Origin: Ascidia mentula
Taxonomy: Eukaryota > Chordata > Ascidiacea > Phlebobranchia > Ascidiidae
Direction: 5' to 3'
Assembly (NCBI GenBank): GCA_947561715.1
Contig: OX387197.1
Location: 1,927,001-1,991,000 of the forward strand
DNA length: 64,000 bases
The translations under genes were made by a program, and so were the position numbers. Under the pieces are notes generated by a model. The model was given only the letters and a program-made list of their open reading frames with translations, had not been told where the DNA came from and did no database searches. Position 1 is the first letter of the stretch. Every line of letters begins with the position of its first letter. This document shows positions 6,101-51,200 of this stretch, piece after piece.

Positions 6101-9100
6101 CTGAAACACGTGTGTTTTTGCGCTTTTTTGCATTGTCGGTGACGTCACATTCAATCAAGTGCCAAACCACTTTCCGCTTCATAGGATTTTTTTTAAATCT
6201 CAGTATCTGTCAAGGATAGAGTGAAGAATAGCGTGAAAGTAATAAAAATCGGTAGAGATCCCACGTATTCCATCAGAATGACCTGAAACACGGGTGTTTT
6301 TGCGCTTTTTTGCATTGCCGGTGACGTCACTTTCAATCAAGTGCCAAACCACTTTCCGCTTCATAGGATTTTTTTTAAATCTCAGTATCTGTCAAGGATA
6401 AAGTGCAGAATAGCGTGAAAGTAATAAAAATCGGTAGAGATCCCACGTATTCTATCAGAATGACCTGAAACACGGGTGATTTTTTTTCGCTTTTTTGCAT
6501 TGCCGGTGACGTCACATTCAATCAAGTGCCAAACCACTTTCCGCTTCATAGGATTTTTTTTAAATCTCAGTATCTGTCAAGGATAGAGTGAAGAATAGCG
6601 TAAAAGTAATAAAAATCGGTAGAGATCCCACGTATTCCATCAGAATGACCTGAAACACGAGTGTTTTTTTTCGCTTTTTTGCATTGCCGGTGACGTCACA
6701 TTCAATCAAGTGCCAAACCACTTTCTGCTTCATAGGATTTTTTTTAAATCTCAGTATCTGTCAAGGATAGAGTGAAGAATAGCGTAAAAGTAATAAAAAT
6801 CGGTAGAGATCCCACGTATTCCATCAGAATGACCTGAAACACGGGTGATTTTTTTTCGCTTTTTTGCATTGCCGGTGACGTCACATTCAATCAAGTGCCA
6901 AACCACTTTCCGCTTCATAGGATTTTTTTTAAATCTCAGTATCTGTCAAGGATAGAGTGAAGAATAGCGTGAAAGTAATAAAAATCGGTAGAGATCCCAC
7001 GTATTCCATCAGAATGACCTGAAACACGTGTGTTTTTGCGCTTTTTTGCATTGCCGGTGACGTCACTTTCAATTAAGTGCCAAACCACTTTCCGCTTCAT
7101 AGGATTTTTTTTAAATCTCAGTATCTGTCAAGGATAGAGTGAAGAATAGCGTGAAAGTAATAAAAATGGGTAGAGATCCCACGTATTCCATCAGAATGAC
7201 CTAAAACACGTGTGTTTTTGCGCTTTTTTGCATTGCCGGTGACGTCACTTTCAATCAAGTGCCAAACCACTTTCCGCTTCATAGGATTTTTTTAAATCTC
7301 TATATTTGTCCAGAATTTATGTCGTCGCAAAATCTAATGGAGTGGCACACTCGATTTTTCACACAATCTCATACATTTTCCCTTCTAATCACAATGTGTC
7401 ACACTTATAAACTTGCAAAGAACGTTTTATTGTGCAATATGCGTCCAATTCTTTTTCCTTCTTTTTGTAGTGAATATAAATGACCGTAAAGGTAATGCTT
7501 GTTAAAATAAATATTTTGATTTAACATTTTCAAATGAAATGGTATTTACTCTTAAAAAATGTTAAATTTGTGCATGATGTTGATGTATCACAGGTGAAAG
7601 TCATCTTTGCTTGTTACACAAACATATAAGAAACACAATTTTTATGGTGGCCACTAAATCTAAGAAACAAATTGGGTAAACAGGCACAATTAAAGAAAAA
7701 ACATTGCGCACGTTTATTCGGACAGTTTTAAATTATCAGGAGTTTTGATAACTGCCACATCTTTGACAATTGAGTTCATGAACATTTCTGCATCATCTGT
7801 GGTTAGTACCTACTGGTAACAGGATCAAAGATTGCTGAAATTTTCATGAGTCGGAAACGTTCGCTATTACTGTACATGCACCTTAATAGGATACATTTCA
7901 TGGCCAACCGTGTAATAAGTCAAACTCATGTACGCGTACTTAATTAACGAACATGCAACTTATTAACGTAACTAATTAACGTGCGCGCATGTTAAGTTGG
8001 CCGATAGTGTCATAATTCTATGTAAAATTACATGTACTGTCATCAGCTTATGGGCGTCGATATGCTCTTGTTTTCTGCACCTTTGCAAATATCACTCATG
8101 TATTCATCTAGTGGCAGGTAGCGTCAGATCTATGTCAAATCCTCAAATGTTATCGCAACTGCTTAAAAATCTAAGTGTTTCATCACAGGCCCAAATATAC
8201 CATGGCCCCGCACAAATTTGTAAGTACCGGAAATGTATTTTTCACATATTTATCCTTTGTCAAATTTGTCCTCTTTTTCCAGAATTAAACATTTGAACAG
8301 CGAAATTGCGCTGTATTCTCAGCTAACCTTGTACTTTTACGTACGCATATGCCTTTACAAATTATTTTGATTTTAAGTTATAGTAAACATGTACATACTT
8401 TGTTTTAATGCGCATGGGCTGCCCACATTCAAAAGAATTTTACAGCGCTTGCAATATGTTGCCACACATTAATTTACAAAGTTTGCATCTTTACGTCGCA
8501 ATTTAATCGTGTTAAGCTTGCCAAAAAGCAGAGTTGATTGCAGTAAAACCTCACGTTTTAGGTTCTCTTTGGGGTTGCGATACATCAAAGTAAACGGTGC
8601 GAACCACAGATATCCACAAGATGGATACATGAATGATATTTGCAAAGTAAAAGCAGAAAACAAGGGCATATCGACTCCCATAAGCTTTGACTTGAAGCTA
8701 ACTATTTGTTGTTTGAAATGAAAATATACGACGATAGTACAAGTAATTTTACCTAAGATTATGACACTGTCGGCCAACTTAACATGTTACTAAGTTACAA
8801 GCACCTTAATAAGTTGCATGTTCGTTAACTAGGTACGCGTACATCAGTTTGACTTATGACGCGGTTGGCCATGAAATATATCCTGTTAAGGTACATGTAC
8901 ACTAATATCGAACGTGTTGCTTACTAACGCGCGCGTGCCTTATTATTCCACATGATGTCGCTCTTATTTGGAATTTGACACTGTTGGCCAGGCTTTAGAT
9001 ATCGCGCACGTTCATTATTACGACACACGCACGTTATCTAAGGTACGCGTACAATATGGCGAATTATGACACCGATGTCCCAAACGACATAACGAACGTG

Positions 9101-12100: not shown

Positions 12101-15100
12101 TGCTGGCTAATTGCCTTTGAATTGTCGTTTACCAGTGCACTTGGCTAAGATGCAGGCAGTTGGGTATAATTGTTTATTGATGAAATGTAACTAAATAGCA
12201 TAAAATAAAATGGAATATATTTAGAATCAAATAGAACGGTCAGAAAGGGCGAAAAGCGTTACCGTATAAACATATAGTCTCGTGATATGCGATATTGTGA
12301 GAGAAAGACAGTGCTGGGCTCGTAAATAAAATTTGGGAAAGAAAGCCCCAGCCCATTACGTAGGGTGAAGTATCCCTGTCACAAACAAACTCCCCTAACG
12401 ATGGAAAGCGATGACAAATTTTTTATCAATGCAGCTTCCAGTTCTGACATTGTCCCAAATGCGACTTGGTGAGTGTCAATGCAAATTCTTATCAACGCGA
12501 TTGCGGGTAGACTTTCACCCATATGTCAAAGGCGGTTTGCATCACACGATCGCAATTTAAATCGAATGACGCTAAAAAGTACTTAACCCTGATATTGGGA
12601 TGTACTTCAATATGTAAAAAAAAATGTTTGAAAAATAATGTATGTTCACAGTACGTTTTACACGCAAAATTGACGATAAAGGTGTGCGCAATGCTAATAA
12701 TTGGGCTAATGGCGACCATGCACATTCGCAATACAAAAAGGAAAACAAACGAGAGAAAAAATCATTTGTTCAAACCTTACTGGATGATGGAACCAAGCTA
12801 CCCTGGCAGGCTGTCGACCGATTACCGTATCTATAGTGCTGAGTAAAAGGTTTGATACTTCCTGGACCTATTTTCAAATGTTTATCACATTGCTTATATG
12901 TGTTTTGCATTCCACGGAAACTGATGACGCCCTTTACAAGGCGAAACATAAATCTAAGCAACCTTCGTATTAAAAGGAAGTCAACATAAATGGTTACATG
13001 TACATATTCGCAAGGGTTAGGCGTGTTTATGAAAAGACTAACAAACGCGTTTGGTATGTGTATCAACATACTTTATAAAGCGACGTAAACCGAAATTAAA
13101 CATGCACAATATCGAATCAAGTCAACCAGCATGGGCAATTGGCATATTTAATCAAGAAGTGTTGCAAAGGATGTTAATGTCGGTATGGAAATAAGGTTAG
13201 AATCCGACGATTTCGCCACTACCATTCGTCAATACAAACTCCCAATCGGATAATATTAAGCACCTCAAAGGCTATCGCATAACGAGACAGGATCGTCACA
13301 ATGAGAAAACCATCATTTGGCAGCTATGGTATTTATAGCATGCAATGTAAACATTTCTGTGTTGTTTGATTACAATGGTGGATATCGTAAATGCAAATTT
13401 TGCCAGGCAATTTGTGCACGAAACACTGCATAGGCCAAAATCTGACTTCTCTAATCGTTTCGATCATGTACAGCTCATCTGGTGGAGCGTTGGGCCTCAT
13501 TAAAAATCGCAAAAAAGTGAAAAAGCCCTGGTTTGAAGTCATTCTGATGGAAAACGTGGGATCTCTACCGATTTTTATTACTTTCACGCTATTCTTCACT
13601 CTATCCTTGACAGATACTGAGATTTAAATAAAATCCTATGAAGCGGAAAGTGGTTTGGCACTTGATTGAAAGTGACGTCACCAGCAATGCAAAAAAGCGC
13701 AAAAACACACGTGTTTTAGGTCATTCTGATGGAATACGTGGGATCTCTACCAATTTTTGTTACTTTCACGCTATTCTGCACTTTATCCTTGACAGATACT
13801 GAGATTTAAAAAAAATCCTATGAAGCGGAAAGTGGTTTGGCACTTGATTGAAAGTGACGTCACCGGCAATGCAAAAAAGCGCAAAAACACACGTGTTTTA
13901 GGTCATTCTGATGGAATACGTGGGATCTCTACCAATTTTTGTTACTTTCACGCTATTCTTCACTCCATCCTTGACAGATACTGAGATTTAAATAAAATCC
14001 TATGAAGCGGAAAGTGGTTTGGCACTTGATTGAAAGTGACGTCACCAGCAATGCAAAAAAGCGCAAAAACACACGTGTTTTAGGTCATTCTGATGGAATA
14101 CTTGGGATCTCTACCGATTTTTGTTACTTTCACGCTATTCTGCACTCTATCCTTGACAGATACTGAGATTTTAAAAAAATCCTATGAAGCGGAAAGTGGT
14201 TTGGCACTTGATTGAATGTGACGTCACCGGCAATGCAAAAAAGCGCAAAAACACTGGTGTTTCAGGTCATTCTGATGGAATACGTGGGATCTCTACCGAT
14301 TTTTATTACTTTCACGCTATTCTGGACTCTTTCCTTGACAGATACTGAGATTTAAATAAAATCCTATGAAGCGGAAAGTGGTTTGGCACTTGAATGAAAG
14401 TGACGTCACCAGCAATGCAAAAAAGCGCAAAAACACACGTGTTTTAGGTCATTCTGATGGAATACGTGGGATCTCTACCGATTTTTGTTACTTTCACGCT
14501 ATTCTGCACTCTATCCTTGACAGATACTGAGATTTAAAAAAAATCCTATGAAGCGGAAAGTGGTTTGGCACGTGATTGAAAGTGACGTCACCGGCAATGC
14601 AAAAAAGCGCAAAAACACTGGTGTTTCAGGTCATTCTGATGGAATACGTGGGATCTCTACCGATTTTTATTACTTTCACGCTATTCTGCACTCCATCCTT
14701 GACAGATACTGAGATTTAAATAAAATCCTATGAAGCGGAAAGTGGTTTGGCACTTGATTGAATGTGACGTCACCGGCAATGCAAAAAAGCGCAAAAACAC
14801 TGGTGTTTCAGGTCATTCTGATGGAATACGTGGGATCTCTACCGATTTTTATTACTTTCACGCTATTCTTCACTCTATCCTTGACAGATACTGAGATTTA
14901 AATAAAATCCTATGAAGCGGAAAGTGGTTTGGCACTTGATTGAAAGTGACGTCACCAGCAATGCAAAAAAGCGCAAAAACACACGTGTTTTAGGTCATTC
15001 TGATGGAATACTTGGGATCTCTACCGATTTTTGTTACTTTCACGCTATTCTGCACTCTATCCTTGACAGATACTGAGATTTTAAAAAAATCCTATGAAGC

Positions 15101-18100
15101 GGAAAGTGGTTTGGCACTTGATTGAATGTGACGTCACCGGCAATGCAAAAAAGCGCAAAAACACTGGTGTTTCAGGTCATTCTGATGGAATACGTGGGAT
15201 CTCTACCGATTTTTATTACTTTCACGCTATTCTGGACTCTTTCCTTGACAGATACTGAGATTTAAATAAAATCCTATGAAGCGGAAAGTGGTTTGGCACT
15301 TGAATGAAAGTGACGTCACCAGCAATGCAAAAAAGCGCAAAAACACACGTGTTTTAGGTCATTCTGATGGAATACGTGGGATCTCTACCGATTTTTGTTA
15401 CTTTCACGCTATTCTGCACTCTATCCTTGACAGATACTGAGATTTAAAAAAAATCCTATGAAGCGGAAAGTGGTTTGGCACGTGATTGAAAGTGACGTCA
15501 CCGGCAATGCAAAAAAGCGCAAAAACACTGGTGTTTCAGGTCATTCTGATGGAATACGTGGGATCTCTACCGATTTTTATTACTTTCACGCTATTCTGCA
15601 CTCCATCCTTGACAGATACTGAGATTTAAATAAAATCCTATGAAGCGGAAAGTGGTTTGGCACTTGATTGAATGTGACGTCACCGGCAATGCAAAAAAGC
15701 GCAAAAACACTGGTGTTTCAGGTCATTCTGATGGAATACGTGGGATCTCTACCGATTTTTATTACTTTCACGCTATTCTTCACTCTATCCTTGACAGATA
15801 CTGAGATTTAAATAAAATCCTATGAAGCGGAAAGTGGTTTGGCACTTGATTGAAAGTGACGTCACCAGCAATGCAAAAAAGCGCAAAAACACACGTGTTT
15901 TAGGTCATTCTGATGGAATACGTGGGATCTCTACCGATTTTTATTACTTTCACGCTATTCTTCACTCTATCCTTGACAGATACTGAGATTTAAAAAAAAT
16001 CCTATGAAGCGGAAAGTGGTTTGGCACTTGATTGAATGTGACGTCACCGGCAATGCAAAAAAGCGCAAAAACACTGGTGTTTCAGGTCATTCTGATGGAA
16101 TACGTGGGATCTCTACCGATTTTTATTACTTTCACGCTATTCTGCACTCCATCCTTGACAGATACTGAGATTTGAATAAAATCCTATGAAGCGGAAAGTG
16201 GTTTGGCACTTGATTGAATGTGACGTCACCGGCAATGCAAAAAAGCGCAAAAACACACGTGTTTTAGGTCATTCTGATGGAATACGTGGGATCTCTACCG
16301 ATTTTTATTACTTTCACGCTATTCTGCACTTTATCCTTGACAGATACTGAGATTTAAATAAAATCCTATGAAGCGGAAAGTGGTTTGGCACTTGATTGAA
16401 AGTGACGTCACCGGCAATGCAAAAAAGCGCAAAAACACACGTGTTTTAGGTCATTCTGATGGAATACGTGGGATCTCTACCGATTTTTATTACTTTCACG
16501 CTATTCTTCACTCTATCCTTGACAGATACTGAGATTTAAAAAAAATCCTATGAAGCGGAAAGTGGTTTGGCACTTGATTGAATGTGACGTCACCGGCAAT
16601 GCAAAAAAGCGCAAAAACACTGGTGTTTCAGGTCATTCTGATGGAATACGTGGGATCTCTACCGATTTTTATTACTTTCACGCTATTCTGCACTCCATCC
16701 TTGACAGATACTGAGATTTGAATAAAATCCTATGAAGCGGAAAGTGGTTTGGCACTTGATTGAATGTGACGTCACCGGCAATGCAAAAAAGCGCAAAAAC
16801 ACACGTGTTTTAGGTCATTCTGATGGAATACGTGGGATCTCTACCGATTTTTATTACTTTCACGCTATTCTGCACTTTATCCTTGACAGATACTGAGATT
16901 TAAATAAAATCCTATGAAGCGGAAAGTGGTTTGGCACTTGATTGAAAGTGACGTCACCAGCAATGCAAAAAAGCGCAAAAACACACGTGTTTTAGGTCAT
17001 TCTGATGGAATACGTGGGATCTCTACCGATTTTTGTTACTTTCACGCTGTTCTGCACTCTATCCTTGACAGATACTAAGTTTTTAAAAAAATCCTATGAA
17101 GCGGAAAGTGGTTTGGCACTTGATTGAAAGTGACGTCACCGGCAATGCAAAAAAGCGCAAAAACACTGGTGTTTCAGGTCATTCTGATGGAATACGTGGG
17201 ATCTCTACCGATTTTTATTACTTTCACGCTATTCTGCACTCCATCCTTGACAGATACTGAGATTTAAATAAAATCCTATGAAGCGGAAAGTGGTTTGGCA
17301 CTTGATTGAATGTGACGTCACCGGCAATGCAAAAATGAGCAAAAAGATCCGTATTTCAGGTTATTTTGAATATAAACTTGGGACTTCTACAGAGGTATTG
17401 GTACGAAATGATTAAGAAGTGAAATATTTTGCAAAATAATGCTTACTGGTATGATATATACCAACAATAAACTCTTTTGTACAAGTTAAACCTTCTTGTG
17501 CAATGCTGCTCATTGATGCGGAACGCATTTTGCGAAACAATAATTTTGGATTCTGCCAGAATGACAATAGTTAATTCACACATGATGTAATTAAAGTTAC
17601 ATAAACAATTATTTCACTTAAATATAAAACAGAAGCCAAGAAAATTCCTGGACAAAGTTTTACTTTAAATCTGACAGGAGGTTTTCGTGATCTTGACTTC
17701 CTGCAAACAGTTGAAGAATACGAACCTAGAGTCAACAAATGGAAATATGTTTCTCCTCTCCTAGAACCTCGTTTCCGTCACTCTGCTTGTGTTATTGATG
17801 GGAGGATTTATGTTGTGGGTGGATGGAGGTGAGGTTTACGTTTGAATGTTTTGTACTAGTGATTGTGACGTCACTATAGGGTTTGTTACTCATAATTTAA
17901 GGTGTTTAATGACTGCGATAATACATGTAAGTGTGTAATTTGCGCACAACCGACTGACCTTGTTAATGATATAAAGTAAAAGTAAATTTTGTGTCCCAGT
18001 ATCAGTAATAAAAATATACAGAACATGTGTGTTGTTGTCAGTTGCGTGTGTAATAATGTCCTGATTTTTAACCAAACTCACAGTAATTTTGGTTGTATTT

Positions 18101-25094: not shown

Positions 25095-28000
25095 ATGGCA
25101 GTTTCCTCACGTACTGCGAGTCCAGAAGAACTTCATATAGTAAGTATCACCTGTTTTATGTTTGTGTAATATTCTAATGCAATATTGTTTTGTCAGTTGA
25201 GAGAATTTAAAGCTGAAAACATATTTTGTGATGTTGAAAAATGTGAAGTTGGCCAAGGTAGTTTTGGCAAAATTTTCATTGGAAAACACAAAAAACATGG
25301 ATTTTTTGCTGTCAAATTCTTTAAAATTGCTGGTGGAGAACATGAGCAATTGATGCTGGAGAATGAGTAAGTTATATGGCTCAGTTTAACTGCCCATAAA
25401 AAATATCCACATGTATTTCCAGGTTTAACCAAGAATATGATGTGTTACTACGTATTCGCCATGACAACATATCAATTGTTCATGGGTACACCAAGTGGCC
25501 AGGGGCAATTGGAATTGTAATGCAATTCTATGGAGGGGGTAATTTAGAAGTCTTACTCCTGGATAAACGTATTGAACTTGGTTCGTGTTTGATTCTTCGT
25601 ATGACAACTGAAATAACATCAGCAGTTGCATACATTCATAATTGCGGGCTTGATAAGCGTGTAGTCCATGGTGATCTTAAGCCTGGAAACATATTCATCA
25701 CAATAGACATGCGTTGCGTAGTTGGTGACTTTGGATGTGCTCGGCTTGTAAACTTTACTCAGGCAGCAACTCAGATTCAAGGTCAACAAAAACGACAACC
25801 ATTGACATTGTACTATGCGGCACCAGAAAAATTATCTGATGACGTTAAACCGAAAAAGGAGCAAGACGCATACAGTTGTGGTGTAATTTATTATGTCATG
25901 CTGGCACGCAAGCAGCCATATCCCTCAGCTGATATTTTTTGGCTAAAAATTCAAAATGGTGGTTGTCCAAACCTTCAAGGTATTAGAGAAATACAGGATG
26001 AAACCAATGATGCAAGCAACAGAGAAATAGTTGATGTGATGGAAAGAGCGATGATCAGATGTTGGAATCAAGATCCAAATCAACGACCAGACATGGTTGA
26101 CATTCGTGATGAATTCCAACAACTTCTTTCCAAACAAGACCCCACAGTAATTTTGCTGCAAGTAGCAAATGCTGCAAGGAACATGCATATTGTGGATCCA
26201 ACAGCAACCCACAATCCAACTGTTCCACTCAGCCAGTTTTCTACACAGACATGGAAATTTCATGGTATGATATTTTGTCAGTTTCATGAATTCAAGTTTG
26301 TTTTGTATCATACTTCCACAATAGTGTTTATGTACAATGGAACTTATATATTGATATGCATGCTTTATATCTCTTGTTCGTGTAATATTTGTTGAGGATT
26401 TTTGTTTCTAGATATTGGGCCTGAAATTAACCAACCACTTGATGGCAACATTCATCCAGTTGAACAAGCACAACAATCCCCACAAGTACAATGTAAGCAA
26501 TTTATGTTGCAAAATTATTATCCAAGTATGTGGGCGTCAGAGGCTGTAATCCTTTTTCAATGCAAGCTACCTGGCCGAAAGCATAAACATTGCGCTTATA
26601 GAGTTAGCTGCAGGAATTGAAAAGAAACGATCACCGTCATCCGTTTGGTGCTCAACGGATGACGGTGATTGTTTCTTTTAAAGTATAGTCACCACAAAGT
26701 GGAAGTCTTTGCTTGGCCGTTTGGTCTGCAAAGTTTGCCTTATAGTTACACCAGCTGCACTGATGAGAACTTTTAGGTCGAAACAGTGGCCATCTGTCTG
26801 CAGCTTATACACGAAACATTTTATTTCAAAAAGTATTCAAAGATTATGAGAAATCTTTCCAAGCCAACGTTTGTTCCACCCTGACTAAGGTCATTGTTTT
26901 TGAAAGCAGAATAAAGCCTATATCACCCACACATACATACAACATTTTACTTGGGATTGCAAATGTTGCTGATTTGCTACTTCCCAAACAAGTTTGATGT
27001 AAACTATATTGTTTTCAGATGAATTAGGAATTGCTGAAGTTGCCCAGATGCAAATACACCAGATACAACCAAGTGCATCGCAAAATAGAGGTTTTGTAAC
27101 CAAACATGAAATATTCTATCAAATAATGCTAATAACTGCTCTTTATGTTATTATGATTTGGAATGTAACAAGTTACTATGAACTAAAACATAATAATAAT
27201 TTTCTGATTGAATAAATAATGCCTAAATGCAATGCATTTAACTGGATATATTTGTCTACAGGTGCAAACAGAAGATCTGCAAGTCATGCTACACCCCAAA
27301 ATCCACCCATTGAAAGAAACCTTCCAGTGGATCATGACTTGCCCAACCCATCACCAGGAAGAAGTGGAAGAGGTAATTTTGTCTTGGAAGTAATCCTACT
27401 GTTTCCATTGTACATGATTTATCTGCTAAAAAAGTTTTGAGACTGCATATCCTTGCTATAAAGAGTAAGTTATTTTTAGATGTTGAAACTTTAAAATGAT
27501 CGAAAACACCTTCTTAAAACAGTAGTGTACACATTTAGGTGTGAGGCATGAAATTGATCCACCACTCGAGAACAACATTCAGCCTAGTGAAAGAGAACAA
27601 CAATCACTGCAAGTACAAGGCAAGTGTTTGGGTACAGACTTGTGTTTCTGTATTTCTTTTTATTCACAAAATCTAAATACAAATAGAAGCAAATAGAAGA
27701 TCTACAAGTCATTCAACACCTGAAGTCCCACCCAGTGGTAGAAATCATCCAGTACATCATGACTTGCCCAACCCATCCACAAGGAGAAGTAAAAAGGGTA
27801 TGTAATTTGTACTTTTTAATAATCTGACATGGTTAGCATTGAGCATAGCAGCATGACAGAATCAATACCAACATGTGAAGTAATTTGCTACAAAAATATT
27901 GGTTTGATGTTTGTGTATGACAGCTGTAAGAATACCCCATATTGCAGCTACTTCACAAGTCTTATAAAATGATTGTCATAAGTAGATTTAAAATATCAAT

Positions 28001-31000
28001 TAAATGGATCTTGTGCTTCATTTATTTTTGTTGCATGAAAACAGATAATCATGCCTTGATAACAACTTTCTGAAAACGTACTTAATTAAAGTTATAAATG
28101 GCTTTAACATTTGAACTTTGTACAAATTATATATGTATAAATGTCTAGTCATTGATGAAGTTCATTGCAAGTTATAATACTGTACAATTTCACACCAGAA
28201 AAAGTGAAACCTGTTACCAACCCTCTGACACCACCCAGTGACCGTAACCTGAGAGTAGATGATTCCACACCCCACTCATCACATCAACAACCAGGTAAAA
28301 TAAAACAGGTGATAACGTAACAAACAAAACATGTGATATGTAAGATAAAAATGTAATGAAAAAATACAATGTCAAATTTAAGTATCTGCCTTTTAAATAT
28401 TGACATATCAAAAATTTCCTGTTAAGTATTTCTGCAATGGTGAAAGTAGGATATTTAAATGTTCAGATCAATATTCATGTGTGATGCACTAGCTACTCAC
28501 TATTCACAAACCTATCAGGACATTTTGTTCCAATGTATTTTCTGTTGCAGGGGACTAACTTGTTATTTGAACCATTTTCCTAACTTGATTTTCCTATTTA
28601 AAATTGTAATGAAACAGCCATGGCATTGCAATGCACAGATTGAGAACAGTCAGTTCTTCTATACAGAAGGTTCACAGGCTTCGCAGCCAAGCTGGATCAG
28701 CCATTTTCCCGACAAGTCGGAGCGAGATCTGAAAAATCAAGCTCCCGGTGAGGTTTGAACTCACGACCCTGGCTAACTAGGCCCAACGCTCTACCAACTG
28801 AGCTAGCTCGGTGGTTTCACGGGTTATATCATGGCCAAGGTACAATGGTGTGCAGGGCACAATTTGTCAGGCGACTTTCACATGCGCAGAGGATCTCCAC
28901 CACCGTAATCAGACAACGCAGAAGTAATACCATGCTTTGAAGGCAGGGTCGCCCCACTATAAAGGGCCTGCGCAGTGGGGCGATCCTGCCTTGCTATGCG
29001 AAAGCATGGTATTACTTCTGCGTTCTTCTATACAGTTTTTTTTTTTTTTCATGGTATGATATTGAGAAATTTCATGGTATGATATTTTGTCAGTTTCATG
29101 AATTCAAGTTTGTTTTGTATCATACTTCCACAATAGTGTTTATGTACAATGGAACTTATATATTGATATGCATGCTTTATATCTCTTGTTTGTGTAATAT
29201 TTGTTGAGGATTTTTGTTTCTAGATATTGGGCCTGAAATTAACCAACCACTTGATGGCAACATTCATCCAGTTGAACAAGCACAACAATCCCCACAAGTA
29301 CAAGGTAAGCAATTTATGTTGCAAAATTATTATCCAAGTATGTGGGCGTCAGAGGCTGTAATCCTTTTTCAATGCAAGCTACCTGGCCGAAAGCATAAAC
29401 ATTGCGCTTATAGAGTTAGCTGCAGGAATTTAAAAGAAACAATCACCGTCATCCGTTTGGTGCCCAACGGATGACGGTGATTGTTTCTTTTAAAGTATAG
29501 TCACCACAAAGTGGAAGTCTTTGCTTGGCCGTTTGGTCTGCAAAGTTCGCCTTATAGTCACACCAGCTGCACTGATGAGACCTTTTAGGTCGAAACAGTG
29601 GCCATCTGTCTGCAGCTTATACACGAAACATTTTATTTCGAAAAGTATTCAAAGATTATGAGAAATCTTTCCAAGCCAACGTTTGTTCCACCCTGACTAA
29701 GGTCATTGTTTTTGAAAGCAGAATAAAGCCTATATCACCCACACATACATACAACATTATACTTGGGATTGCAAATGTTGCTGATTTGCTACTTCCCAAA
29801 CAACTTTGATGTAAACTATATTGTTTTCTGTTTTCAGATGAATTAGGAATTGCTGAAGTTGCCCAGATGCAAATACACCAGATACAACCAAGTGCATCGC
29901 AAAATAGAGGTTTTGTAACCAAACATGAAATATTCTGTCAAATAATGCTAATAACTGCTCTTTATGTTATTATGAATTGGAATGTAACAAGTTACTATGA
30001 ACTAAAACATAATAATAATTTTCTGATTGAATAAATAATGCCTAAATGCAATGCATTTAACTGGATATATTTGTCTACAGGTGCAAACAGAAGATCTGCA
30101 AGACATGTTACACCCCAAAACCCACCCAGTGAAAGAAACCTTCCAGTGGATGATGACTTGCCCAACCCATCACCAGTAAGAAGTGAAATGGGTAATTTTG
30201 TCTTGGAAGTAATCCTACTGTTTCCATTGTACATGATTTATCTGCTAAAAAAGTTTTGAGACTGCATATCCTTGCTGTGAAGAGTAAGTTATTTTTAGGT
30301 GTTGAACTTGAAGCTTTAAAATGATCGAAAACACCTTCATAAAACAGTAGTGTATACATTTAGGTGTTAACCTTGAAATTGATCCACCACTCGAGGGCAA
30401 CATTCAGCCTAGTGAAAGAGAACAACAATCACTACAAGTACAAGGCAAGTGTTTGGGTACAGACTTGTGTTTCTTTATTTCTTTTAATTCTCAAAATCTG
30501 AACACAGCAAGTAGAAGATCTACGAGTTATGCTATACCACTCATTGGAGGATGGCTATCTACAAGGAGAGGTAAAAAGGGTATATATATATATAATCTGA
30601 CATGGTTAGCATTGAGCATAGCAGCGTGACAGAATCAATACCAACATGTGAAGTAATTTGCTACAAAATGTTGGTTTGATGTTTGTGTAAGAGATCCCCA
30701 TATCCTTTTTGCAGCTACTTTGCAAAGTATGAAATGATGAAATGATTGCCTTAAGTAGATTTAATGTATCAATTAAATGGATCTTGTACCTTGTTTATTT
30801 TTGTTGCATGAAAACAGATAATCATACTTGGATAACTATTTTTTTAAAAACGAACTTAATTTAAGTTATAAATTGCTTTTATCAATTGAACTTTGTATAA
30901 ATTATATATGTATGAATGTCTAGTCATTGATGAAGTTTATTGCAAGTTATAATATTGTACAATTTAACACCAGAAAAACTGAGACCTGTTACCAACCCTC

Positions 31001-34000
31001 TGACACCACCCAGTGACCGTAACCTTAGAGTAGATCATTCCACACCCCACTCATCCCATCAACAACCAGGTAAAATAAAACAGGTGATAACGTAACAAAC
31101 AAAACACGTGATATGTAAGATAAAAATGTAATGAAAAAATACAATGTCAAATTTAAGTATCTGCTTTTTGAACATTGACATATCAAAAATTTCCTGTTGA
31201 GTATTTCTGCAATGGTGAAAGTAGAATATTTCAATGTTCAGATCAATATTCATGTGTGGTGCACTAGCTACGCACTATTCACAAACCTATCAGGACATTT
31301 TGTTCCAATGAATTTTCTGTTGCAGGGGACTAACTTGTTATTTGAACCATTTTCCTAACTTGATTTTCCTATTTAAAATTGTCATGAAACAGCCATCGCA
31401 TTGCAATGCACAGATTGAGAACAGTCAGTTCTTCTATACAGAAGGTTCACAGGCTTCGCAGCCAAAGCATTGCAGCCAAGCTGGATCAGCCACAAGTCGG
31501 AGCAAGATCTGAAAAATCAAGCTCCCAGTGAGGTTTGAACTCATGACCCTGGGCTAACTAGGCCCAACGCTCTACCAACTGAGCTAGCTCAGTGGTTTCA
31601 CGGGGTACATTGTGGCCAAGGTACACTGGTGCGCAAGCGCACAACTTGTCAGGCGACCTTCACATGCGTAGAGGATCTCCACCACCGTAATCAGATAACG
31701 CAGAAGTAATACCATGCTTTCAAGGCAGGATCGCCCCACTATAAAGGGCCTGCGCAGTGGGGCGATCCTGTCTTGCTATGCGAAAGCATGGTATTACTTC
31801 TGCATTCTTCTATACAGTTTTTGTTTTTTTTGTATTTTTATTTAAAGACCCCATGGGGTAGGCAGTGTACTTAACTGTAGTGGTGTCTTTTTTATGAACA
31901 TTCAAATTTTTAATAATAAAATTCATTGCAGGCTTGTCAGGATTTCTTCTCATTGGTGGAGAGCATTCAAAACAAGATTGTGTGAAATGGAATGTTGCCA
32001 CAAAACAACATGAACATTTACCAGTTGGTTGCATTTTAATGTTTAAAATAGCTTCACGGTGCCTTAAAACTGTAAACCCCATGCATTTCAACTTGTTTAT
32101 TGCACAAGCAAATCCATTTATTTGTGCTGAAATAACAGATTAATTAAAATACAATATGCTTGGCAGCAACAGCAACATAATACAAGTAAATCTATGTAAA
32201 ATCACAAAAATGTTAGAGAAAAATTGTTGCATCACAATCAGGGGTGAGCTCAATTGTGATATTTCCTTTTGACAGTTTTAAATTTTAAGGAATAATCTTT
32301 GCAAATATATTGGCTGTCTGTTGAAAACTACTGTTAAATTATATTTGAACCACAATAAAAATATTAAAAATTGTTAAAAATTGTTATGAAATGTTTACGG
32401 AGTTTCACAATTTTATTTGTAGAAACTGAACACAGCAAGAAAATACTCAACTTCGGCCAAAGTTGGAAACACAGTTTATGTAATGGGTGGAAGCAGTTCA
32501 ACAAAAAGTTGTGAGATAATGAATTTGGAGAGAAGTGAACGCTGGATGAAATTTGCTGATTTATGTGAAGGTCGAGTGTTTGCTGCATCTGCTGTTGTCG
32601 GAGGTCAGTTGCTATGATTGAACAAAACAATTTAAAAAAATCAAATATCTTTGGAACCAATATGTTAATGTTTTATGACACCTAAATTACATTTTGCGAC
32701 CCCATATATTCATTAAACAGAATAAAATCTGTGCACTTAGGTATCTTTAGGGAGAAATTTTATGCTTGGATTCGTTTATAACAAGGTCACCATATTCAAA
32801 TTATAAAAGACGGTTTAAGAAATCGTAATGTGTATAAACAGAGTTATACGAAGAAAATCAATGGTTAAATTATATACTAAGCAGTTTGAGTAAAATACAC
32901 AGATAAATTACTTGAATTCTACTGTATTTTATCTTGTGGGTGGTACTTTGTTATGCTACAGAAATATTTGTTAATGACAATAGCAAAAGTTGCATAGGAT
33001 CCAAGTTTTATTGCTACCCAATCTATTTTGTTGACAATTCCATGTTGTAGAGAAACTTTACCTTTCCGGAGGTCATGGTGGAGATCACAAACCATTTTCA
33101 TCCTACTTGATTTATAACATAGATGTAGACAGATGGACGAATAATTTCAACATGTTACAACCAAGATATGCACATGGAATGTGTTCAATTGACAGTAAGA
33201 ATATGTTTTAAATCTTTCAAAACTTATGAAGGCTTTCCCTTTTCTTGACAATGCAAGGCAACAATGTAAAATTCGGTTTAAACTTTACACACCCCACAAT
33301 ACTCACTCACTTATTACTCACAAACATTCCATCAAGTTGCAAAACTGTTTGCTTATTAATGACGTCATATGCACGAGTTTTAATTTCGTTTCGTGTAAAA
33401 AAAATTTTTTTTATTAAACTCATGTTTAAAATAATTATTTGCGTTCGTGAATATCAACCTTAAAATTGTTTAGTTTTTATTTACATCTTGATACAAAACT
33501 GTCCGTTGTTCCTTCGTAAAACGTAGTGCTTAACTCAATGATTGTTACGTAACATTACAACATAATCGTAATATGACGTCACAATAAATATTAACACAAG
33601 CGATTTGAAAATTTCTTCAGATGTTTTGTTTTCTGTGGGCGGAAGTGATGGCAGACAATACTTACAATCATGTGAATTCCACGATGTTCGTGTTGGAACC
33701 TCCAGAAGAATCGCTTCTCTCAATCAAGCAAGATGTGATTTTACATGTGAAGAAATTAAAGGGAAGATCTATGCAATTGGTTAGTTATCAGAAGTTACAT
33801 ATTAACTAAAACTAGTAGTTTTTGAAACTGTTTCTTATTTCCTGGATTCCATCCATTAATGCGAGGTAACTTCAGTCGATTCCATGATATTTTGAATGAA
33901 GGTTTGTTATTTTCTTGCTATTCTTGTAGTTTGTATATTCTTGACAAATAGTTTTTGAATTAACTCAAATTACTGGTTTAGTTTTAAACCAAAAACCATC

Positions 34001-42227: not shown

Positions 42228-45200
42228 ATGGCAGTTTTCTCACATACTGCTAATCCAGAAGAACTTCACATAGTAAGTATCACCTGTTTTATGTTTATAT
42301 AATATTCTAATGCAATATTGTTTTGTCAGTTGAGAGAATTCAAAACTGAAAACATATTTTGTGATGTCGAAAAATGTGAAGTTGGCCAAGGTAGTTTTGG
42401 TAAAATTTTCATTGGAAAACATAAAAAACATGGATTTTTTGCTGTGAAATTCTTTAAAATTGCTGATGGAGAACAGGAGCAATTGATGCTGGAGAATGCG
42501 TAAGTTATGTGGCCCAGTTTAACTGTCCATAAAAAATATCCACATGTATTTTTAGGTTTAACCAAGAATACGACGTGTTACTGCGTATTCGCCATGACAA
42601 CATATCAATTGTTCATGGGTATACCAAATGGCCGGGAGCAATTGGGATTGTAATGCAATTCTATGGAGGGGGTAATTTAGAAGTCTTACTCCTGCAAAAA
42701 CGCATTGAACTTGGATCGTGTTTGATTCTTCGTATGACAACTGAAATAACATCAGCAGTTGCATACATTCATAATTGCGGGCTTGATAAGCGTGTAGTCC
42801 ATGGTGATCTTAAGCCTGGAAACATATTTATCACAATAGACATGCGTTGCGTAGTTGGTGACTTTGGATGTGCGCGGCTTGTAAACTTTACTCAGGCAGC
42901 AACACATATTCAAGGTCAACAAAAACCACAGCCATTGACATTGTATTATGCGGCACCAGAAAAAGTATTTAAAGGCGCTGAACCTAAAAAGGAACAAGAT
43001 GCATACAGTTGTGGTGTAATTTATTATGTGATGCTGGCACGCAAGCAGCCATATCCCTCAACTGATATTTTTTGGTTCAATATTCAAAATGGTGGTCGTC
43101 CAAACCTTCAAGGTATTAGAGAAATACAGGATAAAACCAATGATGCAAGCAACAGAGAAATAGTTGATGTGATGGAAAGTGCGATGATCAGATGTTGGGA
43201 TCAAGATCCAAATCAACGTCCAGACATGGTTGACATTCGGGATGAATTCCAACAACTTCTTTCCAAACAAGATCCCAGAGTAACTTTGCAGCAAGCATTA
43301 AATGCTGCAACGAACATGCATTTTGTGGATCCAACAGCAACCCACAATCCAACTGTTTCACTCAGCCAGTTTTCAACACAGACATGGAAATTTCATGGTA
43401 GCTTTTTGTTTGTCAGTTTCATGATTTCAAGTTTGTTTTGTATCATACTTCCACAATAGTGTTTATGTACAATGGAACTTATATATTTACATACTTTATA
43501 TCTCTTGTTTGTGTATTTGTTGAGGATTTTTGTTTGTAGATGTTGGGCCTGAAATTAACCGACCACTTGATGGCAACATTCATCCAGTTGAACAAGCACA
43601 ACAATCCCCACATGCAAGCTACCTGGCCGAAAGCATAAACATTGCGCTTATAGAGTTAGCTGCAGGAATTGAAAAGAGCATTTTAATTTCGAAAAGTATT
43701 CAAAGTTATTTTTGATAAGATTATGAGAAATCTTTCCAAGCCAACGTTTGTTCCACCCTGACAAAGGTCATTGTTTTTGAAAGCAGAATAAAGCCTATAT
43801 CACCCATACATACATACAACAAAACACTTGGGATTGCAAATGTTGCTGATTTGCTACTTCCCAAACAACTTTGATGTAAACTATATTGTTTTCAGATGAA
43901 TTAGCAATTGCTGAAGTTGCCCAGATGCAAATACACCAGATACAACCAAGTGCATCGCAAAATAGAGGTTTTGTAACCAAACATGGAATATTCTATCAAC
44001 TAATGCTAATAACTGCTCTTTATGTTATTATGAATTGGAATATAACAAGTTACCATAAACTAAAACGTAATAATAATTTTATCATTGAATAAATAATGCC
44101 TAAATGCAATGCATTTAACTGCATTTTCGCTTATCTTAGATCCAAACAGAAGATCTGCAAGACATGTTACACCCCAAAATCCACCCATTGAAAGAAACCT
44201 TCCAGTGGATGATGACTTGCCCAACCCATCACCAGGAAGAAGTGGAATAGGTAATTTTGTTTTGGAAGTAATCCTACTGTTTCCATTGTACATGATTTTT
44301 CTGCTAAAAAAGTTTTGAGACTGTATAACCTCACTATAAAAGAGTAAGTTATTTTTAGGTGTTGAATTTGAAGCTTCAAAATGATCGAAAACACCTTCAT
44401 AAAACAGTAGTGTATACATTTAGGTGTTAACCTTGAAATTGATCCACCACTCGAGGGCAACATTCAGCCTAGTGAAAGAGAACAGCAATCACCGCAAGTG
44501 CAAGGCAAGTGTTTGGGTACAGACTTGTGTTTCTGTATTTCTTTTATTCACAAAATCTAAATACAAACACAGCAAATAGAAGATCTACAAGTCATTCTAC
44601 ACCTGAAGTCCCACCCAGTGGAAGAAATATTTCAGTACATCATGACTTGCCCAACCCATCCACAAGGAGAAGTAAAAAGGATAATTTGTACTTTTTGGTA
44701 ATCTGATATGGTTAGCATTGAGCATAGCAGCGTGACAGAATCAATACCAACATGTGAAGTAATTTGCAACAAAAATGTTGGTTTGATGTTTGTGTATGAC
44801 ACCTGTAAGAAGACCCCATATTGCAGCTACTTCACATGCCTTATGAAATGATTGTCATAAGTAGATTTAATATATCATTTAAATGGATCTTGTGCTTCAT
44901 TTATTTTTGTTGTATGAAAACAGATAATCATGCCTTGATAACAACTTTCTGAAAACGTACTTAATTAAAGTTATAAATGGCTTTAACAATTGAACTTTGT
45001 ACAAATTATATTTGTATAAATGTCTAGTCATTGATGAAGTTCATTGCAAGTTATAATATTGTACAATTTACCACCAGAAAAAGTGAAACCTGTTACCAAC
45101 CCTCTGACACCACCCAGTGACCGTAACCTGAGAGTAGATCATTCCACACCCCACTCATCACATCAACAACCAGGTAAAATAAAACAGGTGATAACGTAAC

Positions 45201-48200
45201 AAACAAAACATGTGATATGTAAGATAAAAATGTAATGAAAAAATACAATGTCAAATTTAAGTATCTGCTTTTTGAACATTGACATATCAAAAATTTTCTG
45301 TTAAGTATTTCTGCAATGGTGAAAGTAGGATATTTCAGTGTTCAGATCAATATTCATGTGTGGTGCACTAGCTACTCACTATTCACAAACCTATCAGGAC
45401 ATTTTGTTCCAATGAATTTTCTGTTGCAGGGGACTAACTTGTTATTTGAACCATTTTCCTAACTTGATTTTCCTATTTAAAATTGTTATGAAACAGCCAT
45501 GGCATTGCACAGATTGAGAACAGTCAGCCAAGCTGGATCAGCCATTTTCCCGACAAGTCGGAGCGAGATCTGAAAAATCAAGCTCCCGGTGAGGTTTGAA
45601 CTCACGACCCTGGGCTAACTAGGCCCAACGCTCCACCAACTGAGCTAGCTCGGTGGTTTCACAGGGTATATCGTGGCCAAGGTACAATGGTGTGCAGGGC
45701 ACAATTTGGCAGGCGATTTTCGCATGCGTAGAGGATCTCCACCACCGTAATCAGACAACGCAGAAGTAATACCATGCTTTGAAGGCAGGGTCGCCCCACT
45801 ATAAAGGGCCTGCGCAGTGGGGCGATCCTGCCTTGCTATGCGAAAGCATGGTATTACTTCTGCGTTGTTCTATATAGTTTTTTTTTTTTTTCATGGTATG
45901 ATATTTAGAAATTTCATGGTATGATATTTTGTCAGTTTCATGAATTCAAGTTTGTTTTGTATCATACTTCCACAATAGTGTTTATGTACAATGGAACTTA
46001 TATATTGATATGCATGCTTTATATCTCTTGTTTGTGTAATATTTGTTGAGGATTTTTGTTTCTAGATATTGGGCCTGAAATTAACCAACCACTTGATGGC
46101 AACATTCATCCAGTTGAACAAGCACAACAATCCCCACAAGTACAAGGTAAGCAATTTATGTTGCAAAATATTTATCCAAGTGTGTGGGCGTCAGAGGCTG
46201 TGATCCTTTTTCAATGCAAGCTACCTGGCCGAAAGCATAAAAATTGCGCTTACAGAATTAGCTGCAGGAATTTGGTGCCCAACGGATGACGGTGATTGTT
46301 TCTTTTAAAGTATAGTCACCACAAAGTGGAAGTCTTTGCTTGACCGTTTGGTCTTCAAAGTTCGCCTTATAGTCACACCAGCTGCACTGATGAGACCTTT
46401 CAGGTCGAAACAGTGGCCATCTGTCTGCAGCTTATACACGAAACATTTTATTTCGAAAAGTATTCAAAGATTATGAGAAATCTTTCCAAGCCAACGTTTG
46501 TTCCACCCTGACTAAGGTCATTGTTTTTGAAAGCAGAATAAAGCCTATATCACCCACACATACATACATACAACATTATACTTGGGATTGCAAATGTTGC
46601 TGAATTGCTACTTCCCAAACAACTTTGATGTAAACTATATTGTTTTCAGATGAATTAGCAATTGCTGAAGTTGCCCAGATGCAAATACACCAGATACAAC
46701 CCAGTACATCGCAAAATAGAGGTTTTGTAACGAAACATGAAATATTCTATCAAATAATGCTAATAACTGCTCTTTATGTTATTATGAATTGGAATGTAAC
46801 AAGTTACTATGAACTAAAACATAATAATAATTTTCTGATTGAATAAATAATGCCTAAATGCAATGCATTTAAGTGGATATATTTGTCTACAGGTGCAAAC
46901 AGAAGATCTGCAAGACATGATACACCCCAAAATCCACCCATTGAAAGAAACCTTCCAGTGGATCATGACTTGCCGAACCCATCACCAGGAAGAAGTGGAA
47001 GAGGTAATTTTGTCTTGGAAGTAATCCTACTGTTTCCATTGTACATGATTTATCTGCTAAAAAAGTTTTGAAACTGCATATCCTTGCTATAAAGAGTAAG
47101 TTATTTTTAGGTGTTGAAGCTTTAAAATGATCGAAAACACTTTCTTAAAACAGTAGTGTACACATTTAGGTGTGAGGCATGAAATTATTCCACCACTCGA
47201 GAACAACATTCAGCCTAGTGAAAGAGAACAGCAATCACTACAAGTACAAGGCAAGTGTTTGGGTACAGACTTGTGTTTCTGTATTTCTTTTTATTCACAA
47301 AATCTAAATACAAATAGAAGCAAATAGAAGATCTACAAGTCATTCAACACCTGAAGTCCCACCCAGTGGTAGAAATCATCCAGTACATCAAGACTTGCCC
47401 AACCCATCCACAAGGAGAAGTAAAAAGGGTATATAATTTGTACTTTTTGATAATCTGACATGGTTAGCATTGAGCATAGCAGCGTGACAGAATCAATACC
47501 AACATGTGAAGTAATTTGCAACAAAAATGTTGGTTTGGTGTTTGTGTATGACAGCTGTAAGAATACCCCATATTGCAGCTACTTCACAAGTCTTATGAAA
47601 TGATTGTCATAAGTAAATTTAATATGTCAATTAAATGGATCTTTTGCTTCATTTATTTTTGTTGCATGAAAACAGATAATCATGCCTTGATAACAACTTT
47701 CTGAAAACGTACTTAATTAAAGTTATAAATGGCTTTAACAATTGAACTTTGTACAAATTATATATGTATAAATGTCTAGTCATTGATGAAGTTCATTGCA
47801 AGTTATAATATTGTACAATTTACCACCAGAAAAAGTGAAACCTGTTACCAACCCTCTGACACCACCCAGTGACCGTAACCTGAGAGTAGATCATTCCACA
47901 CCCCACTCATCACATCAACAACCAGGTAAAATAAAACAGGTGATAACGTAACAAACAAAACATGTGATATGTAAGATAAAAATGTAATGAAAAAATACAA
48001 TGTCAAATTTAAGTATCTGCTTTTTAAACATTGACATATCAAAAATTTCCTGTTAAGTATTTCTGCAATGGTGAAAGTAGGATATTTAAATGTTCAGATC
48101 AATATTCATGTGTGGTGCACTAGCTACTCACTATTCACAAACCTATCAGGACATTTTGTTCCAATGAATTTTCTGTTGCAGGGGACTAACTTGTTATTTG

Positions 48201-51200
48201 AACCATTTTCCCAACTTGATTTTCCTATTTAAAATTGTTATGAAACAGCCATGGCATTGCAATGCACAGATTGAGAACAGTCAGCCAAGCTAGATCAGCC
48301 ATTTTTCCGACAAGTCGGAGCGAGATCTGAAAAATCAAGCTCCCGGTGAGGTTTGAACTCACGACCCTGGGCTAACTAGGTTGGGCACCAAACGGATGAC
48401 GGTGATTGTTTCTTTTAAAGTATAGTCACCACAAAGTGGAAGTCTTTGCTTGGCCGTTTGGTCTGCAAAGTTCGCCTTATAGTCACACCAGCTGCACTGA
48501 TGAGACCTTTTAGGTCGAAACAGTGGCCATCTGTCTGCAGCTTATACATGAAACATTTTATTTCGAAAAGTATTCAAAGATTATGAGAAATCTTTCCAAG
48601 CCAACGTTTGTTCCACCCTGACTAAGGTCATTGTTTTTGAAAGCAGAATAAAGCCTATATCACCCACACATACATACAACATTACACTTGGGATTGCAAA
48701 TGTTGCTGATTTGCTACTTCCCAAACAAGTTTGATGTAAACTATATTGTTTTCAGATGAATTAGCAATTGCTGAAGTTGCCCAGATGCAAATACACCAGA
48801 TACAACCAAGTGCATCGCAAAAAAGAGGTTTGGTAACCAAACATGAAATATTCTATCAAATAATGCTAATAACTGCTCTTTATGTTATTATGAATTGGAA
48901 TGTAACAAGTTACTATGAACTAAAACATAATAATAATTTTCTGATTGAATAAATAATGCCTAAATGCAATGCATTTAACTGGATATATTTGTCTACAGGT
49001 GCAAACAGAAGATCTGCAAGACATGTTACACCCCAAAATCCACCCATTGAAAGAAACCTTCCAGTGGATGATGACTTGCCCAACCCATCACCAGGAAGAA
49101 GTGGAAGAGGTAATTTTGTCTTGGAAGTAATCCTACTGTTTCCATTGTACATGATTTATCTGCTAAAAAAGTTTTGAGACTGCATATCCTTGCTATAAAG
49201 AGTAAGTTATTTTTAGGTGTTGAAGCTTTAAAATGATCGAAAACACCTTCTTAAAACAGTAGTGTACACATTTAGGTGTGAGGCCTGAAATTATTCCACC
49301 ACTCAAGAACAACATTCAGCCTAGTGAGAGAGAACAACAATCACTGCAAGTACAAGGCAAGTGTTTGGATACAGACTTGTGTTTCTGTATTTCTTTTTAT
49401 TCACAAAATCTAAATACAAATATAGCAAATAGAAGATCTACAAGTCATTCTACACCTGAAGTCCCACCAAGTGGTAGAAATCATCCAGTACATCATGACT
49501 TGCCCAACCTATCTACAAGGAGAAGTAAAAAGGGTATATAATTTGTACTTTTTGATAATCTGACATGGTTAGCATTGAGCATAGCAGCGTGACAGAATCA
49601 ATACCAACATGTGAAGTAATTTGCTACAAAATGTTGGTTTGATGTTTGTGTATGACACCTGTAAGAATACCCCATATTGCAGCTACTTCACAAGTCTTAT
49701 GAAATGATTGTCATAAGTAGATTTAATATATCAATTAAATGGATCTTGTGCTTCATTCATTTTTGTTGCATGAAAACAGATAATCATGCCTTGATAACAA
49801 ATTTCTGAAAACGTACTTAATTAAAGTTATAAATGGCTTTAACAATTGAACTTTGCACAAATTATATATGTATAAATGTCTAGTCATTGATGAAGTTCAT
49901 TGCAAGTTATAATACTGTACAATTTCACACCAGAAAAAGTGAAACCTGTTACCAACCCTCTGACACCACCCAGTGACCGTAACCTGAGAGTAGATCATTC
50001 CACACCCCACTCATCCCATCAACAACCAGGTAAAATAAAACAGGTGATAACGTAACAAACAAAACATGTGATATGTAAGATAAAAATGTAATGAAAAAAT
50101 CTGCTTTTTGAACATTGAAATATCAAAAATTTCCTGTTAAGTATTTCTGCAATGGTGAAAGTAGGATATTTAAATGTTCAGATCAATATTCATGTGTGGT
50201 GCACTAGCTACTCACTATTCACAAACCTATCAGGACATTTTGTTCCAATGAATTTTCTGTTGCAGGGGACTAACTTGTTATTTGAACCATTTTCCCAACT
50301 TGATTTTCCTATTTAAAATTGTTATGAAACAGCCATGGCATTGCAATGCACAGATTGAGAACAGTCAGCCAAGCTGGATCAGCCATTTTCCCGACAAGTC
50401 GGAGCGAGATCTGAAAAATCAAGCTCCCGGTGAGGTTTGAACTCACGACCCTGGGCTAACTAGGCCCAACGCTCTACCAACTGAGCTAGCTCGATGGTTT
50501 CACGGGGTATATCGTGGCCAAGGTACAATGGTGTGCAGGGCACAATTTGTCAGGCGACTTTCACATGCGTAGAGGATCTCCACCACCGTAATCAGACAAC
50601 GCAGAAGTAATACCATGCTTTGAAGGCAGGGTCGCCCCACTATAAAGGGCCTGCGCAGTGGGGCGATCCTGCCTTGCTATGCGAAAGCATGGTATTGCTT
50701 CTGCGTTCTTCTATACAGTTTTTTTATTTTTTTATTTTTATTTAAAGACCCAAGGGGTAGGCAGTGCACTTAACTGTAGTGGTGTCTTTTTTATGAACAT
50801 TCAAATTTTTAATATTAAAATTCATTGCAGGCTTGTCAGGATTTCTTCTCATTGGTGGAGAGAATTCAAAACGAGATTGTGTGAAATGGAATGTTGCCAC
50901 AAAACAACATCAACATTTACCAGTTGGTTGCATTTTAATGTGTAAAATAGCTTCACGGTGCCTTAAAACTGTTCACACTATGCATTTCAACTTGTTTATT
51001 GCGCAAGCAAATCCATTTATTTGTGCTAAAATAACAGATTAATAAAATACAGTAAGCTTGGCAGCAACAGCAACATAATACAAGTAAATCTTTGTAAAAT
51101 CACAAAAATGTTAGAGAAAAATTGTTGCATCACAATCAGGGGTGAGCTCAATTTTGATATTTCCTTTTGACAGTTTTAAATTTAAAGGAATAATCTTTGC

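Follow-up and report, generated by a model that had tools for sequence, protein, structure and literature searches.

Why should hammerhead ribozyme motifs lie, in sense orientation, inside introns of a kinase-kelch gene family? A preliminary description of a 64,000-nucleotide stretch of the Ascidia mentula genome (hereafter the window; contig OX387197.1, positions 1,927,001 to 1,991,000) raised this question by reporting complete hammerheads at 26753, 29565, 46380 and 48490. On the evidence set out here, we think it probable that the intronic hammerheads are the 3′ remnant of one 5′-truncated retrozyme, copied by segmental duplication, and that the parent of this retrozyme was moved by a protein of Penelope-like elements (PLEs).

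Hammerhead motifs and the gene family that carries them

A pattern scan of the window found CTGATGA followed by GAAA on the plus strand, starting at 26760, 29572, 46387 and 48497, in agreement with all four reported positions. The motifs are as follows.

26753 to 26805, plus strand: hammerhead copy, stem II mismatched as GAAC/GGTC (77.4 bits with our own covariance model)
29565 to 29617, plus strand: type I hammerhead with full core and three helices (core scan; 80.1 bits with our own covariance model)
46380 to 46432, plus strand: hammerhead copy with a single change in the stem II loop (pairing check; our own covariance model)
48490 to 48542, plus strand: hammerhead copy identical to that at 29565 over all 53 nt (pairing check; our own covariance model)

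As described, stem I (AGCTGCA/TGCAGCT) is paired at 7/7 positions and a GTC cleavage site is present in every copy; stem III is likewise paired at 4/4 positions in all four. For the hammerhead at 29565, cleavage would be expected after C29610. The claim of completeness holds for 29565, 46380 and 48490 and fails for 26753, where an A-G mismatch occupies the third of the four stem II pairs and weakens the hammerhead fold (-11.7 kcal/mol, compared with -15.1 kcal/mol). A T-to-C substitution, the sole change of copy 46380, is indeed located in the stem II loop. Judged by core and helices, we class the window motifs as type I hammerheads, with CUGANGA, GAA, UH, three helices and an open end at stem I; apart from the one stem II mismatch of copy 26753, they have these parts in full (three of four copies).

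A covariance model built from 15 rows of this genome's copies, the four window copies among them, scored those four at 77-80 bits and the next match in the window at 13 bits. Over the 14 distinct rows, 95.2% of the helix cells are paired, compared with 16-35% in a slid alignment. No pair is altered on both sides among these 14 rows and, given this lack of compensatory changes, the fold rests on exact core and helix complementarity. For the isolated 53 nt the hammerhead fold is not that of minimum energy, which at -17.4 kcal/mol lies 2.3 kcal/mol lower, although the energy rules used omit tertiary contacts and cannot decide between the two folds.

The Rfam hammerhead models, which had been proposed as a check, gave no window match at the gathering score. 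Under permissive settings RF00008 matched out of register at 29552 and 48477 (21.6 bits, cut-off 48.5), and RF03152 scored 17.5 bits. RF00008 gives no more than 20.6-21.6 bits to tandem members of this retrozyme family as well (loci L033 and L031), and the Rfam test is therefore powerless here; a control search with the hammerhead models gave a signal in 0/14 control genomes. Further core-like matches lie in the window, all of them absent from the covariance-model matches: one at 25836 lies within a kinase exon, one at 12921 has no stem I or stem III partner by eye, and those at 10061 and 11948 are on the minus strand. Matches to mir-5 at 26617 and 29427, below the cut-off and on both strands, are accounted for by a palindrome at the insertion junction described below.

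The host family is represented by these features.

25400 to 26395, plus strand: open frame with a kinase exon of the host family
42533 to 43459 and 58735 to 59661, plus strand: further open frames with kinase exons
33572 to 33784, plus strand: open frame with a kelch motif
29305 to 29837, plus strand: host intron of a kinase-kelch gene, GT...AG, 533 nt (from the sequence)

All three exons tested contain a kinase domain (Pkinase, E 2e-30 to 3e-30), and the one frame tested for kelch matched PF01344 (25.2 bits; cut-off 20.1) on the strand of the hammerheads; the reported intronic placement on the coding strand of a kinase-kelch family was thus confirmed. A protein search with the kinase yielded three relatives, 38-40% identical to it. 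The hammerhead at 29565 sits 227 nt upstream of the splice acceptor. It is possible that the pre-mRNA would cleave itself unless splicing is faster. Published cleavage rates are about 0.8 per minute for a coral retrozyme hammerhead and about 0.1 per minute for a mussel one, and those of the axolotl are described as slower when acting as single units (PMC7229834); at such rates splicing could well outpace intronic cleavage.

Other repeats share the window. An open frame at 56619-57260 resembles by eye the end of a Ty3/Gypsy-type integrase (no Pfam match at E 1), and a tandem repeat of ~182 bp forms two arrays, at 13511-17470 (21 copies) and 5202-7332 (11 copies). Five tRNA-like sequences on the minus strand (28748, 31528, 45589, 50430 and 62050; two exceed the Rfam cut-off) are probably a tRNA-derived SINE.

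A retrozyme family and the ends of its insertions

The window copies match the unit of a dispersed retrozyme at unit positions 142-313 only, with 87.5-90.2% identity (29442 to 29624 at 90%), and this confinement identifies them as 5′-truncated single units. In the assembly (196 Mb, 79 contigs) the hammerhead pattern matches 1,238 + 1,162 times and its reversed form 19 + 22 times. The exact 39-mer core of the copy starting at 29572 occurs 315 + 295 = 610 times, the reversed 39-mer 0 + 0 times, and at least three other hammerhead variants (38, 41 and 46 bases) span the same interval. Units are spaced by ~285 bp in arrays of 2-6 on the same strand, such as the six at C1:3332752-3334216, and besides these tandems the family occurs as lone units and as inverted pairs; most of the insertions examined share 97-100% identity with the unit. 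By these features, the parent repeat is a retrozyme of the metazoan type, with a unit of ~285 nt and a type I hammerhead. In this genome, with its 610 exact copies of the motif, the insertions examined can be read at both ends to within a few bases.

End analysis drew on a non-random sample of loci, 24 picked up by a similarity search with the hammerhead region and five taken from the pattern list. From 26 clusters we obtained 20 main-family insertions. The six that were dropped comprise tiny chance clusters (L008 at 1163, L009 at 1063, L020 at 768 and L023 at 591) and loci of divergent families (L038 and L039); their shared flank words measure 3-7 bases, and all 17 clusters with words of at least 9 were retained.

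The 3′ ends of the retrozymes cluster at two places, 13 to 19 and 41 to 60 nt past the hammerhead cut. Twelve of the 20 insertions are inverted pairs, with a minus copy on the left, a plus copy on the right and the 3′ ends facing outward. In 12/12 of these, the two outer ends belong to different classes, 13-19 nt past the cut on one side and 43-60 nt on the other, so that one end is longer by ~30 nt, the right end of L025 being +28 by BLAST and +17 once the target duplication is subtracted. The eight insertions of single orientation end at +16 to +18 (five) or +41 to +49 (three). Target duplications are exactly 12 bp in 11/20, at least 9 bp in 17/20 and 6-8 bp in three, whereas mismatched flank pairs, our control, shared at least 9 bp in 14/642. 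Orientation was counted among 170 distinct matches listed (the first 100 of the 2,400 pattern places and the first 100 of the 610 39-mer places): opposite-strand neighbours within 2 kb are arranged minus-then-plus, that is 5′-to-5′, in 15/15 cases, and within 6 kb the count is 16 minus-then-plus versus 2 plus-then-minus. The latter two, at 3.55 and 5.6 kb, are taken for separate insertions. Because the two end classes differ within a pair and one target duplication is shared by both sides, one insertion event is the best reading of an inverted pair. Hairpins around the two start sites were not clearly better than those of shuffled sequences (z -0.7 to -1.65).

The PLEs of the same genome share this architecture. 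At least 121 GIY-YIG matches were found (150 of 382 candidates scored), and among the matches listed opposite-strand PLE neighbours within 6 kb are minus-then-plus in 17/17 cases. Six inverted PLEs that we inspected each have one short and one longer outer end (6/6), the difference being ~32-44 nt (worked out by hand for L075/L076), and target duplications of 12, 13, 12, 13, 12 and 12 bp. All of this, from the repeat, its end positions and target duplications to the inverted arrangement and its match in PLEs, is read directly from the assembly. By eye, no obvious end sequence is common to the retrozyme and the PLE families examined.

Hammerheads of the minimal PLE type occur in 24/39 PLE stretches and in none of the reversed controls, a descriptive count in that the pattern was shaped on examples from the same loci and many loci overlap or share few families. 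In these hammerheads a palindromic stretch of 4 nt replaces stem III, which agrees with the minimal variants reported in PMC7761336. Examples at L047, L050, L055, L077, L081, L083 and other loci carry an extra A after CTGANGA, and the palindrome that replaces stem III is ACGT or AGCT; their stem I varies between families yet remains paired, which fits the published dimer action. Studies by Cervera and de la Pena (2014) and Lunse et al. (2017) reportedly dealt with PLEs bearing minimal hammerheads. The small size of such hammerheads and their action as dimers are already published (PMC11722881, PMC7761336).

Several loci merit separate mention. At L078, retrozyme-type hammerheads might have been part of the PLE repeat; the other PLE copy has none outside it, and we regard them as a separate inverted insertion. 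Retrozyme-type hammerheads lie within 1.5 kb of PLE endonuclease sequences at L064 and L074. A PLE sits inside an array of ~138-bp tandem repeats at L080 (C69:12188500-12196500). At L075-L076 (C67:6133500-6150400), two minus PLE units are followed by three plus units with a same-strand spacing of 2,870 bp; these are near-identical, contain long open frames and are apparently recent.

PLE biochemistry offers a frame for these ends. In purified form, the PLE of the lizard Anolis cleaves both target strands, extends them and initiates reverse transcription within its RNA, and the optional PLE tail of 30-40 bp corresponds to the interval from one start site to the other (PMC11167929). Our retrozyme ends would fit this scheme, with one end of each kind in 12/12 inverted retrozymes and 6/6 inspected inverted PLEs. 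Hammerhead mutants of the PLE kept insertion in vitro (PMC11167929), which implies that hammerhead cleavage is dispensable for PLEs themselves.

We propose, and consider likely, that animal retrozymes are parasites of PLEs, inserted by cutting of both strands ~12 bp apart and copying of circular RNA from two start sites. Tandem retrozyme copies would be transcribed, and their hammerheads would release unit-length RNA, which in circular or multimeric form would serve as template for the PLE protein. The PLE enzyme, probably a dimer, would cut both target strands ~12 bp apart; reverse transcription would be primed at either end, the two fixed sites for this lying ~17 and ~47 nt beyond the hammerhead cut, and the two cDNAs would be joined head to head to give one short and one tailed end. 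The identity of the enzyme, the circular template and cleavage in vivo are the steps that we infer. As the end sites lie 3′ of the cut and inserted copies run through the cut site, the template was presumably circular or uncut: a linear cut monomer would yield just ~15-50 nt of cDNA, whereas a circle or uncut multimer yields whole units. PLEs have been proposed as mobilisers of retrozymes from shared hammerheads, tandem structure and co-occurrence (PMC7229834), a suggestion that the shared end architecture seen here supports.

It is unlikely, in our assessment, that a LINE-type enzyme with L1-style twin priming moves the repeat in place of a PLE. LINE insertions also show 5′ truncation, target duplications and inverted segments. 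The inverted arm in L1 twin priming, however, begins at an arbitrary internal site, whereas the outer ends observed here fall on two narrow sites, one each, in 12/12 retrozymes, and do the same in 6/6 inspected PLEs, the comparison of end architecture having been made with the PLEs of this genome. Nor do the junctions listed show a poly-A end by eye. LINEs are nevertheless named as an option by the retrozyme authors (PMC7229834), and the 15-bp duplications on record for Nematostella repeats were likened to those of LINEs (PMC4918200), a point that counts against movement by PLEs.

A probable single insertion, multiplied with the gene

The insertion in the window, its junctions and the corresponding empty sites are as follows.

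29442 to 29624, plus strand: retrozyme fragment, 183 bp, with one hammerhead (empty-site comparison, GAAACA flanks, unit match 90%)
29436 to 29441: left target-site duplication GAAACA, 6 bp (empty-site comparison)
29625 to 29630: right target-site duplication GAAACA (empty-site comparison)
29427 to 29497: 5′-junction palindrome, nearly perfect, with an inverted copy of the left target flank in the right arm (TTTAAAAGAAAC)
26630 to 26812, plus strand: same insertion in a duplicated gene segment (both ends by eye)
46271 to 46439, plus strand: same insertion with the left palindrome arm deleted (start from the BLAST match, end by eye)
48380 to 48549, plus strand: same insertion, bordered on the left by a tRNA-like repeat in place of the usual intron (start from BLAST, end by eye)
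43659 to 43710, plus strand: empty site, paralogous intron without the insertion (intron alignment)
59935 to 59990, plus strand: empty site, paralogous intron without the insertion (intron alignment)

The empty sites carry a related single copy of the GAAACA target. Outside the window, six more matches on C1 end within two bases of one point (query 129-130 of 151), which suggests that these six C1 sites are also empty. Filled copies number six, all within C1:1.924-1.976 Mb, two of them just upstream of the window (C1:1924046 and 1926856). Given the empty paralogous introns and the target duplication, it is most likely that a single retrozyme inserted into an ancestral gene and was then multiplied with the kinase-kelch family. 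The same two lines of evidence leave the original view of the hammerheads as a feature of the gene without support and point to remnants of a retrozyme insertion. As the copies stem from one insertion, their sense orientation counts as one event, without statistical weight.

The left end of this insertion departs from the standard. The 71-bp palindrome there suggests fold-back during insertion or reverse transcription; a junction palindrome with inverted target flank is also seen at 26617-26685. Compared with standard retrozyme insertions, that in the window has a duplication of 6 bp and a fold-back left end, and it lacks the standard inverted arm.

Could the hammerheads nonetheless have been retained as a regulatory feature, with self-cleavage of the intron tuning splicing or mRNA output as proposed for amniotes? 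The core is intact in 4/4 window copies and stem II in 3/4, the orientation is sense and the motif is kept in six duplicates, as such a role would have it. Six duplicates of one event, however, are not six retentions, some paralogous introns do without the motif (two seen in the window, the further ones inferred), and a stem II mismatch is present in 2/6 filled copies. Variable sites across the six copies number 2/53 in the motif versus 13/224 in the downstream intron (Fisher P 0.74, at low power); 33/135 variable columns upstream of the motif were set aside, copy 48490 having unrelated sequence there. No sign of constraint is visible in this comparison, which with six copies has low power, and we consider the regulatory reading very improbable. 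The loop substitution of copy 46380, put forward as the kind of change expected of a functional RNA, does not serve as a sign of function, another copy being changed inside stem II and the variability of the 53 nt not being clearly below that of the adjacent intron. The intronic copies of the truncated retrozyme are probably neutral passengers, and since each has one hammerhead only, no unit circle could arise from any of them alone. The intronic hammerheads themselves are thus ordinary mobile-element debris.

Least credible of all is the reading of the repeat as an ordinary satellite, or as a DNA transposon with inverted repeats, that contains a hammerhead-like sequence by chance: tandem arrays and palindromes do occur, but the arrays examined are short and dispersed, and the outer ends fall on two sites, with the whole flanked by a target duplication and with inner junctions and unit number varying, where a DNA transposon would be expected to have matching terminal repeats of fixed extent.

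Relation to known hammerhead elements

Earlier publications already cover retrozymes, the hammerheads of PLEs and the notion that PLEs assist retrozymes (PMC7229834, PMC7761336, PMC11722881). In the accessible text of these works the mobilising enzyme of animal retrozymes is a suggestion only, and the end structure shared with PLEs turns it into a specific, testable mechanism. Our literature search, which covered available main texts, found no description of double-ended inverted retrozyme insertions or of tails, and a search for the word 'inverted' in the available text of PMC7229834, PMC4918200, PMC7761336 and PMC11722881 found no passage on inverted retrozyme insertions.

The closest relatives are the metazoan non-LTR retrozymes, described as short dispersed tandem repeats whose units measure 150-450 bp and contain a type I hammerhead, with lone units and multimers both occurring and PLEs alongside (PMC7229834); the 285-bp family has the same forms and the same company. 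That text describes tandem copies, and the words 'inverted' and 'tail' are absent from the part available, whereas inverted pairs with a tailed end are found here. Its figure for GC content is below 50% (below 45% in a figure legend), and one L033 unit has 46.7%. Metazoan retrozymes are further marked by the absence of coding capacity, LTRs, primer site and polypurine tract, and our unit measures just 285 bp. Abundant circular and linear RNAs characterise them, circular RNA having been demonstrated for the retrozymes of coral and mussel; the present family is described here from genomic sequence.

Plant LTR retrozymes are comparable in that they are non-autonomous, contain hammerheads and are supposed to move through circular RNA (PMC4918200). 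They differ in that their hammerheads are of type III and lie in LTRs, their circles measure 600-800 nt, their mobilisation is Gypsy-like and their duplications span 4 bp (PMC7229834), against a type I hammerhead, 285 nt and usually 12 bp in the ascidian family. The amniote hammerheads are intronic too, few and highly conserved by the published accounts (PMC7761336, PMC6155905), in contrast to the duplicated mobile-element insertion with empty paralogs that we describe. The kinase-kelch copies have one more trait in common with them. The published intronic hammerheads of amniotes are reported to lie in sense orientation.

The comparison with PLEs of the same genome is the most direct. Retrozymes and PLEs are both inverted head to head, have a tail of ~30-44 nt at one end and place a hammerhead just upstream of the end sites. 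Duplications are 12-13 bp in 6/6 PLEs and 12 bp in 11/20 retrozymes. The retrozyme hammerhead has a full stem III, in contrast to the 4-nt palindrome of PLE hammerheads, and a unit of 285 nt is too short for an open reading frame encoding reverse transcriptase and GIY-YIG endonuclease. The retrozyme would thus be a parasite of PLEs and itself no PLE.
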